From NCBI GenBank assembly GCA_034521495.1, contig JAXHMK010000010.1, forward strand, positions 124,001 through 188,000: 64,000 nucleotides of DNA, read 5' to 3'. Origin of the DNA: Balneolaceae bacterium (GTDB taxonomy: Bacteria > Bacteroidota > Rhodothermia > Balneolales > Balneolaceae). The number at the start of each line of letters is the position of its first letter. Position 1 is the first letter of the stretch. A program made the translations under genes and the position numbers. Positions 18,569 to 55,025 of the stretch are shown here, piece after piece. The notes beneath the pieces are model-generated. The model was not told the origin of the DNA. It made no database searches and saw nothing but the letters and a program-made list of their open reading frames with translations.

Positions 18569-18628
18569 AGTAGGCAGTTGACAGTTGGCAATATAACTTT
18601 GCCTACTGCCTACTGCCTACTGCCTATT
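18569..18628. repeat. Heptanucleotide tandem repeat with internal inverted repeat
   Basis: The heptamer GCCTACT is repeated three times in full at 18601-18621, with a fourth variant copy (GCCTATT) to 18628. Twenty-six nt upstream, AGTAGGCAGT (18569-18578) is the exact reverse complement of ACTGCCTACT inside the array, so the region can fold back. It lies 13 nt beyond the stop of the glutaryl-CoA dehydrogenase-like gene. Confidence 0.85.
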
Positions 18629-52031: not shown

Positions 52032-52075
52032 AGAAATAAATTTTGGGATATTATGCAATCATTCATACTCTTTTT

Positions 52076-52117
52076 GAGATTTGAGATTTGAGATTTGAGA
52101 TTTGAGATTTGAGATTT
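52076..52117. repeat. GAGATTT heptanucleotide tandem repeat, six copies
   Basis: Six perfect consecutive copies of GAGATTT, followed by a T-run. Such pure short-period arrays are prone to slippage and may vary between strains. Confidence 0.95.
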
Positions 52118-52316: not shown

Positions 52317-53558
52317 ATGGCTGTAAAAATTGAGATGCCTAAACTTAGCGATACCATGGAAGAAGGGGTTATCGCAAAATGGAATGTTGAAGAAGGGGAC
52401 GAAGTAAGTTCCGGGGATGTAATTGCCGAGGTAGAAACGGACAAAGCCACGATGGAAGTGGAAGTGTTCGATGATGGCACAATTCTCAAAATTCTTGCCA
52501 AAGAGGGGGATGCTATTCCGTTGGGCGGATTGATAGCCGTAGTGGGTGAAGAAGGTGAAGATATCAGCGATATTCTTGACGAGGCAGAAGGTGATAAAGA
52601 GCCTGAAAAAGCTGAAGTTGAAGAGGAGAAAGAAGAAGTAGATGAGAAGGAAGAAAAATCAGAGAAAAAAGAAGCACAGAAAGAAGAAAAAGCACCACCG
52701 GCACCTACAGGGAATGGACGAATTAAAGCCTCTCCGCTTGCACGAAAAATGGCTGAAGATAAAGGTATTGATCTAAATCGTGTGGAGGGATCAGGTCCCG
52801 AAGGGCGAATCATCAAACGAGATATTGAAGATTTTAAGCCGGCTGCTGCTCCTGCTACTCAGATACAGTATACATCAGAGGAGGATGAGGACGTGAAGAT
52901 CTCTCAGATGAGGAAGACCATTGCTCGTCGTCTTGCTGAGAGCAAATTTACAAATCCGCATTTCTATGAGACAGTTGATATCGACATGGAGCATGCCATT
53001 CAGGCCCGGGATCGTCTGAATGAGATCAGTGAAGTGAAGATCAGTTTCAATGATATCGTTGTGAAAGCCTGTGCAGCTGCCCTTCGAAAACATCCATATG
53101 TAAACTCATCATGGATGGATGATGTAATTCGACAGCACGGCGATGTAAATATAGCCGTTGCCGTTGCAATCGAAGAGGGCTTAATGACTCCGGTGATCAA
53201 TCATGCAGATAAGAAAAATCTGCGTCAGATCTCAACCGAAACACGAGAGCTTGCCGGCCTTGCAAAAGAGAAAAAATTGCAGCCTGAGCAGATGGAAGGA
53301 AGCACATTTACTGTAAGTAATCTCGGAATGTTTGGAATTGAAGAGTTTACTGCGATTATCAATCCACCGAATGTTTGCATTCTGGCTGTTGGAGCGATTC
53401 GGGATGTTCCCGTTGTGAAAGATGGAGAAGTGGTTCCCGGAAAACGAATGAAGGTTACCCTTTCAAGTGATCACCGGGTTGTGGATGGAGCCAAAGCGGC
53501 CGACTTTCTGAATACATTACGGGAGCTTCTTGAGAATCCGTTGAGTATGCTGCTCTAA
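52317..53558 (+). CDS. pdhC: Pyruvate dehydrogenase E2 component (dihydrolipoamide acetyltransferase)
   Basis: A 413-residue E2 with three parts. One lipoyl domain (1-80) has Lys43 in VETDKATMEVE. An acidic, Glu/Lys-rich linker (about 85-130) precedes a peripheral subunit-binding domain at 137-175 (IKASPLARKMAEDKGIDL and GSGPEGRIIKRDIE). The catalytic domain to the end has His386 and Asp390 in DHRVVDG. It transfers the acetyl group to CoA. The single lipoyl domain and pdhA/pdhB upstream support pyruvate as substrate. The stop is followed at once by a fourfold 145-bp repeat array. Confidence 0.95.
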   Translation: MAVKIEMPKLSDTMEEGVIAKWNVEEGDEVSSGDVIAEVETDKATMEVEVFDDGTILKILAKEGDAIPLGGLIAVVGEEGEDISDILDEAEGDKEPEKAEVEEEKEEVDEKEEKSEKKEAQKEEKAPPAPTGNGRIKASPLARKMAEDKGIDLNRVEGSGPEGRIIKRDIEDFKPAAAPATQIQYTSEEDEDVKISQMRKTIARRLAESKFTNPHFYETVDIDMEHAIQARDRLNEISEVKISFNDIVVKACAAALRKHPYVNSSWMDDVIRQHGDVNIAVAVAIEEGLMTPVINHADKKNLRQISTETRELAGLAKEKKLQPEQMEGSTFTVSNLGMFGIEEFTAIINPPNVCILAVGAIRDVPVVKDGEVVPGKRMKVTLSSDHRVVDGAKAADFLNTLRELLENPLSMLL

Positions 53559-54133
53559 TGTACGCCGGACAGCCTGTCCGGCACCACATCTGTTGTTCTG
53601 GCAAAGAAGGAAGTTTGAGGGTTGATTGATATTCGGCCATCCTGATTCACACCCATCAATAGGCATGAGTTAATCAGTAACGGGCAAGCTGCCCGTTGTA
53701 CATTGTACGCCGGACAGCCTGTCCGGCACCACGATCTGTTGTTCTGGCGAAGAAGGAAGTTTGAGGGTTGATTGATATTCGGCCATCCTGATTCACACCT
53801 ATCAACAGGCATGAGTTAATCAGTAACGGGCAAGCTGCCCGTTGTACATTGTACGCCGGACAGCCTGTCCGGCATCACGATCTGTTGTTCTGGCGAAGAA
53901 GGAAGTTTGAGGGTTGATTGATATTCGGCCATCCTGATTCATACCCATCAACAGGCATGAGTTAATCAGTAACGGGCAAGCTGCCCGTTGTACGTACGGA
54001 CAGCCTGTCCGGCACCACCATTTGTTGTTCTGGCGAAGAAGGAAGTTTGAGGGTTGATTGATATTCGGCTATCCTGATTTACACCTATCAACAGGCATGA
54101 GTTAAACAGTAACGGGCAAGCTGCCCGTTGTAC
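53559..54133. repeat. Tandem array of four ~145-bp units, each with two hairpins
   Basis: Units start near 53559, 53704, 53850 and 53994. Each begins with palindrome GCCGGACAGCCTGTCCGGC (53564-53582 in unit 1) and ends with AACGGGCAAGCTGCCCGTT (53679-53697 in unit 1). At junctions 1/2 and 2/3 these are joined by GTACATTGTAC, also palindromic. The middle ~95 bp is conserved with a few substitutions. Unit 4 begins with a short deletion that shortens the first stem. The array fills the whole space between the pdhC stop (ends 53558) and the DUF4249 stop (54138). Unit lengths are not all multiples of three, so it is not a coding repeat. Confidence 0.95.
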
Positions 54134-54137
54134 TTTA

Positions 54138-55025
54138 TTAAAACGGATTTAAAATAATTGTTGAAACCGTATCCGTGGCTAAACTTCCGAAAACTCCAAT
54201 CCCCCCTTCAACATTATAGATCAGGTTGGGAATTTCTCCGGGGGAGAGGGTGGAGCCACCCAGTTGAACGTTCTGCGATCTCACGAGATCAGCAATATTT
54301 TTATCGACGGATTGTGTGACAATTCGGGTTTCGCCATAAAAGGCAACTCCTATCCATGGGAACTTCAGTCGTATTGTTTCATCATCATTTCGGGAAAAAC
54401 TCTCTTCATTGATCAAACCGGAAGAATTTACCTGGAAATCTGAAAGTTCAACATTATCATCATCTAAAGCTGCAAAATAAAAAGGTGTCATGTTATCCAA
54501 TCTTGCATGGAGAGCTATAGCAGTAAACACAAATATATTCTGTGGTTGTGTTTTTTCAGTGGGTGAGAGTACTAATTCGAACTGACTACCCTGATAGACG
54601 ATCGTTTCGGGAATCTCATTGATCACCTCAAAATCATCCGGTATAGTTGTTGATGTCTGGATGACTTCAGGCCGGTCATCAAAACTAACATCCAGCCGAT
54701 AGGTTCGGGTTGGCAACATTCTGTGATTCTGATTTAACGGTACATACTTTTCCTTTTCATTATTAAAGTTATATCCAAAAACCTCTTCATCTGAATCACT
54801 ATCATCAAGCAGAACAATTTGAACATCGGCATTATTGAGTACCAATTCGGATGCATTATACTCTTGATCAGTTCGGGCGGTAGTTCGCACAAATACATCC
54901 GGCAGTGAGTCATTCGCCACTGCATAACTTTCTACCACCACATACTCTTTAAAAGAGTCCTGTTCGTACTGTTCACAGGCAGAAATAAGTAAAAGTAATG
55001 GTAGGAGTAAGTAAAGCTTTTTCAT
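54138..55025 (-). CDS. DUF4249 family lipoprotein
   Basis: A 295-residue lipoprotein with lipobox LISAC (Cys17). The layout matches DUF4249 proteins of Bacteroidota: an early VVESYAVANDSLPDVFVRTT strand pair, a YVPLNQNHRMLPTRTYRLDVSF region and a beta-rich remainder. Such proteins are usually encoded next to a TonB-dependent receptor, as here (4 nt after it), and probably form an outer-membrane partner of it. Substrate unknown. Its 3' end abuts the 145-bp repeat array. Confidence 0.85.
   Translation of the reverse strand: MKKLYLLLPLLLLISACEQYEQDSFKEYVVVESYAVANDSLPDVFVRTTARTDQEYNASELVLNNADVQIVLLDDSDSDEEVFGYNFNNEKEKYVPLNQNHRMLPTRTYRLDVSFDDRPEVIQTSTTIPDDFEVINEIPETIVYQGSQFELVLSPTEKTQPQNIFVFTAIALHARLDNMTPFYFAALDDDNVELSDFQVNSSGLINEESFSRNDDETIRLKFPWIGVAFYGETRIVTQSVDKNIADLVRSQNVQLGGSTLSPGEIPNLIYNVEGGIGVFGSLATDTVSTIILNPF

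Follow-up and report, generated by a model that had tools for sequence, protein, structure and literature searches.

The DNA behind pdhC in the window analysed here (the whole stretch of 64,000 nucleotides) was found to hold four repeat units that are very probably REPINs, presumably moved by a single cognate RAYT; one of them would have landed behind pdhC in an ancestor and later multiplied in place. The units are arranged head to tail, measure 140–143 bp each and occupy positions 53560–54133 between two convergent stop codons. On the plus strand, unit 1 lies at 53560..53701 (142 bp; GTAC-REP(L) ... inverted REP(R)-GTAC), unit 2 at 53705..53847 (143 bp), unit 3 at 53851..53993 (143 bp) and unit 4 at 53994..54133 (140 bp). 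Copy starts in the array at 53565, 53711, 53857 and 53997 gave spacings of 146, 146 and 140, and TRF on the window reported a repeat at 53559–54133 with a period of 146, 4.0 copies and 95% matches. The upstream neighbour is pdhC (2-oxoacid dehydrogenase acyltransferase; 52317..53558, plus strand), and a DUF4249 gene (54138..55025, minus strand) converges on it. With the last base of the pdhC stop at 53558 and the first base of the DUF4249 stop at 54138, only 1 bp and 4 bp are left beside the array. An earlier note on this DNA had described a fourfold array that fills the gap between the two stops and is neither a CRISPR nor coding, and our results agree with it in each of these respects; short repeats with unique spacers were not found in the array, the whole 146-bp period being repeated at 95%. 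TRF also reported two perfect heptamer repeats in the window, TTTGAGA (6.4 copies) at 52073–52117 between pdhB and pdhC, and TGCCTAC (3.9 copies) at 18600–18626.

Each unit carries two hairpins, each once per unit, compared with a chance expectation of 0.05–0.07 for the whole window. The L hairpin (REP, GC foot; plus strand) was located at 53564..53582 in unit 1 and at 53709–53727, 53855–53873 and 53997–54013 in the other units; in unit 4 its stem is 17 bp instead of 19 bp, because three bases (GCC) are missing at the start of that unit. The R hairpin (REP inverted, AA foot; minus strand) was located at 53679..53697 in unit 1 and at 53825–53843, 53971–53989 and 54111–54129 in the others. From outside inwards, the left unit end reads GTAC-GC-CGGACAG-C-CTGTCCG-GC, and the right end, when read along the opposite strand, gives GTAC-AA-CGGGCAGCTTGCCCG-TT. 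The reverse complement of AACGGGCAAGCTGCCCGTT-GTAC is GTAC-AACGGGCAGCTTGCCCGTT, which, when compared with GTAC-GCCGGACAGCCTGTCCGGC, represents a single hairpin in two orientations. Since L and R are one tagged hairpin inverted, each unit is an inverted REP pair, that is, a REPIN. The two near-perfect dyads per unit of the earlier note were indeed present, but they were not independent motifs. The feet of the two REPs are distinct (GC in L, AA in R), so the unit has a direction. The third palindrome claimed for the first two junctions, GTACATTGTAC, was observed at both (53698..53708 and 53844–53854) and consists of two neighbouring GTAC tags flanking 3 bp (GTAC-ATT-GTAC), whereas the third junction (53990–53997) reads GTACGTAC. 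In a census of this genome, the junctions were mostly GTACGTAC (7), one shared GTAC (4), or two tags 1–3 bases apart.

The unit is dispersed over the genome, a Balneolaceae-related draft assembly of 4.57 Mb. A blastn search with one unit gave 96 matches, and it was also present in relatives, so that the unit is not unique to this locus. The hairpin core CGGRCAGCYTGYCCG occurred in 121 exact copies at more than 30 loci and the reversed control pattern in none, REP counts per genome varying with the search pattern used. In 32 stretches examined, 52 L-to-R units were found, 33 of which measured 139–147 bp, and many of their interiors were unrelated. The GTAC tag was observed on 103 of 114 REPs of this genome and GTAG on one. 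Of the 32 array loci, 31 were intergenic, with 21 in co-directional, 8 in convergent and 2 in divergent gaps, and one overlapped a predicted ORF. The orientation of the units showed no bias with respect to local GC skew at these loci (13 same, 19 opposite).

A gene for a Y1/HUH protein was found on the opposite strand within a unit of 926 bp that shares these REP ends (L048:4253–5178; contig C9:732252–733177). The enclosed transposase matched REP_Tyr_transpos (NF047646) with E = 2e-21 and 76.5 bits, just below the 80-bit cut-off, and Y1_Tnp weakly; its HUH motif (NHVH) and tyrosine motif (YTIYNP) were intact, and the gene was single-copy in the genome. The earlier note had suggested a search for a tyrosine transposase gene whose flanks share the hairpins, and this RAYT answers to that description. 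Together with the dispersal of the unit and its presence in relatives, it lends good support to one of the readings offered there, a non-autonomous palindromic element amplified in place. Homologues with 54–62% identity were found in five other species of the genus, two of them with internal stops, and all five have related REP cores alongside. More distant homologues were scattered over Bacteroidota, Chloroflexi, Poribacteria and others, with Balneolaceae MAGs as the nearest named records. A search of solved structures by sequence gave no match. The same genome encodes five more RAYT-like Y1 proteins of 183–200 aa (C18:29529, C9:95744, C10:276448, C9:354973 and C19:122955; L039–L043); these further proteins apparently belong to other groups, and two flanks (L082, L083) contained no GTAC REPs.

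The stems and the interior of the unit behaved differently. In 44 distinct stem sequences from the sampled genomes, collected by a search that favours paired cores, 94.9% of the pair cells held standard pairs, and 48 two-sided changes were observed versus 13.9 in shuffles, none of 500 shuffles being as high. The two outermost pairs lie outside the search pattern, and they still switch, one among G-C, A-T and C-G and the other among C-G, A-T and T-A. By this strong covariation the hairpins are maintained as secondary structure and the stems, judged from their sequences, are under selection. When 16 units belonging to the window's subfamily were aligned, covariation was seen in the two hairpins and none in the interior, and the interior found at the same place in the closest relative, G015, is unrelated. 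The functional conservation implied earlier for the middle of ∼95 bp could thus not be upheld, and this interior is probably expendable DNA.

The 3′ flank of pdhC could be read in 20 relatives, and among these, REPs behind pdhC were found only in G015, which is 98% identical in the C-terminal part of PdhC and in which the REPs begin at the same base after the stop. It is the first unit there that has the unrelated interior, and the DUF4249 side is found on a second G015 contig, where the REP end resembles the unit of the window. The two contigs hold different units, which means that G015 has at least two units at the locus, with the contig breaks inside the array. A single unit at this place was considered and dropped, as the one contig ends 72 bp past it and the other starts in a different unit beside DUF4249. 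No REPs were found behind pdhC in G011 (95%) or G010, and a pattern search of the G011 genome gave zero REP cores. The distance from the pdhC stop to the DUF4249 motif was 654 bp here, compared with 96 bp in G011 and 86 bp in G010, a difference of about the size of the array. These comparisons show gain or loss at the pdhC locus between species. Elsewhere, 14 of 17 G015 REPIN stretches examined were syntenic with REPIN loci of this genome, so inheritance at existing sites accounts for most of the family. Neither G015 nor G011 has the REPtron at the syntenic position, and the site there is not a clean empty one, ∼115 bp of other DNA being present. The ∼115 bp replacing the REPtron (L262, L264) contain a hairpin-like repeat, GAAATACCATG(TTTACG), which was also observed inside a REPIN (L055/L158) and may represent a further family of small repeats. 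The interiors of two REPINs (L062:3445–3717 and L045:4615–4932) contain a second, nested palindromic repeat (TTTTGCAAAACTCTGACCGT.ATCCTGAACT...); the nested repeat of L062 is absent from the orthologous G015 REPIN (L150), so its gain or loss must postdate the split.

From draft assemblies and sequence comparison between species, the following course may be proposed. A REPIN of ∼143 bp, made of two inverted 19-bp REPs with GTAC at the outer feet and ∼95 bp between them, would be moved by the cognate RAYT of the HUH Y1 type, which presumably cuts and joins single-stranded DNA at the tagged hairpins. One REPIN was probably acquired just behind pdhC in an ancestor shared with G015, before the split, and a later head-to-tail duplication in the window's lineage would have given the four near-identical copies. 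The interiors are near-identical in the array and mixed in G015, which favours duplication over repeated independent insertion; the duplication might have proceeded by slippage, by unequal exchange among near-identical units, or by a unit re-inserting at its neighbour's tag. The array probably persists because a site between two gene ends does little harm.

Three other explanations were weighed against this REPIN origin. The array could be kept for a local function, as a structured 3′ UTR or a two-way transcription barrier that ends or stabilises the pdh mRNA and shields it from the DUF4249/TonB-receptor genes converging on it. Its exact position between two convergent genes would fit such a role, and many REPIN loci abut a stop codon, with 8 convergent and 2 divergent among the 32 loci compared with 1 convergent and 4 divergent among 26 gaps of the window; gene-end placement would, however, equally result from the purging of insertions close to promoters. 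One unit folds better than its shuffles (z = −3.3 as RNA, −2.8 as DNA), but an Rfam covariance-model search gave no match up to E = 1. An ordinary hairpin-plus-T-run follows pdhC in several relatives and was not seen here, where a weak T-rich tail was observed on the last R hairpin only and terminator-like matches were not above shuffles. Most relatives moreover have no REP at the pdhC locus, and the G015 interior is unrelated, which makes a retained local function unlikely.

A BIME-like role as a binding array for DNA gyrase or a nucleoid protein appears considerably less probable still: the anatomy resembles REP/BIME, sequences that are reported to bind several proteins (PMC2817692), but the interiors are not conserved, so that only the hairpins could be bound. 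Such binding and an mRNA 3′-UTR role would be side effects of the array and not its origin. Equally improbable is an IS200/IS605-type transposon with non-autonomous, PATE-like derivatives that form the array. Terminal hairpins, a Y1 transposase and no obvious target duplication are shared with such elements; the enclosed transposase, in contrast, is of the RAYT type (Y-x-x-x-NP, here YTIYNP) and single-copy, not of the multi-copy IS200 type with Y-x-x-x-Q, and the stretches around seven IS200-like genes of the genome (L075–L081) contained no such REP.

Compared with known systems, the features are by sequence those of a REPIN/RAYT system (PMC3116915; PMC6006769), except for the canonical GTAG tag (PMC3733652). 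This kind of element is already known, and the unusual part is the GTAC recognition tag in place of GTAG. The REPINs and RAYTs of P. fluorescens SBW25 (Bertels and Rainey 2011, PMC3116915) likewise show the inverted REP doublet, intergenic dispersal, a cognate RAYT located next to the REPINs that belong to it, and ordered tandem arrays in which the REPINs are almost identical, one of these arrays having four copies over 700 bp. Unlike those, the units here have the tag GTAC instead of GTAG, a length of ∼143 bp versus doublet peaks at 71 and 110 bp (PMC3116915), distinct feet (GC, AA) and a RAYT gene inside a unit. The GTAG- and CGTC-tagged REP superfamilies (Di Nocera et al. 2013, PMC3733652) are similar in their tagged stem-loops, often HH dimers, with spacers of conserved length and linked RAYT genes; GTAC was not found in the text of that paper. 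TnpA-REP subclass 2.4 (Quentin et al. 2018, PMC6006769), which is spread over Bacteroidetes, Cyanobacteria and scattered phyla, shares motifs of the NH[IFV]H and YIxNNP type and REP flanks, and the assignment of our transposase to it is by motif resemblance only. That survey looked for GT[AG]G feet automatically (PMC6006769), whereas members here also carry GTAC, GTAT or GTAA. E. coli REP/BIME has palindromes in alternating orientation between genes and a RAYT in the genome, but here there is no stem bulge, the tag is palindromic and the phylum is different. No report of REPIN arrays in Balneolota was found in the open-licence literature, and the present array documents them.

The tag varies among related systems. 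In the congener G010, which has the same hairpin and a homologous RAYT, GTAG was found in 9 of 14 REPs, implying that the tag and the hairpin can evolve independently of each other. In other phyla, the feet read by eye beside homologous RAYTs were GTAC, GTAG, GTAT and GTAA. These differences represent natural variation in the presumed cleavage guide. REP tags have so far been described as GTAG/GTGG (or CGTC), and the tag may guide cleavage. It was reported that changing GTAG to GTAC shifted cleavage by the Marinomonas enzyme to GA and GT in vitro and that the Stenotrophomonas enzyme no longer cleaved after this change (PMC8266576). By analogy, we tentatively suggest that the fourth tag base might be free in this transposase clade (GTAG, GTAC, GTAT, GTAA) and that the tag might act as a guide determining where the DNA is cut. 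With GTAC, the dinucleotide predicted to be cut (GT) is part of the tag itself, so that each end would combine the roles of guide, cut site and landing site; if true, such one-piece ends would favour head-to-tail arrays like that of the window.

A search by mutual information in 30 proteins for a residue of the transposase that specifies the tag gave no convincing candidate. At the position following the conserved W (E. coli Q95), Q was present in 8 of 10 GTAG members versus 6 of 20 others (Fisher p = 0.019; p = 0.09 for GTAG versus GTAC alone), in tests that ignore relatedness and with tags assigned by eye. The clade offers natural tag variants on one hairpin (GTAC here, mostly GTAG in G010) with transposases that are ∼60% identical, which makes the guide idea testable by swapping tags and enzymes. 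In Bacterium UASB270, seven GTAC-footed CCGCGAACC...GGTTCGCGG hairpins surround a distant homologous RAYT (L208:3001–3597), a locus that represents a clean example for tag experiments.
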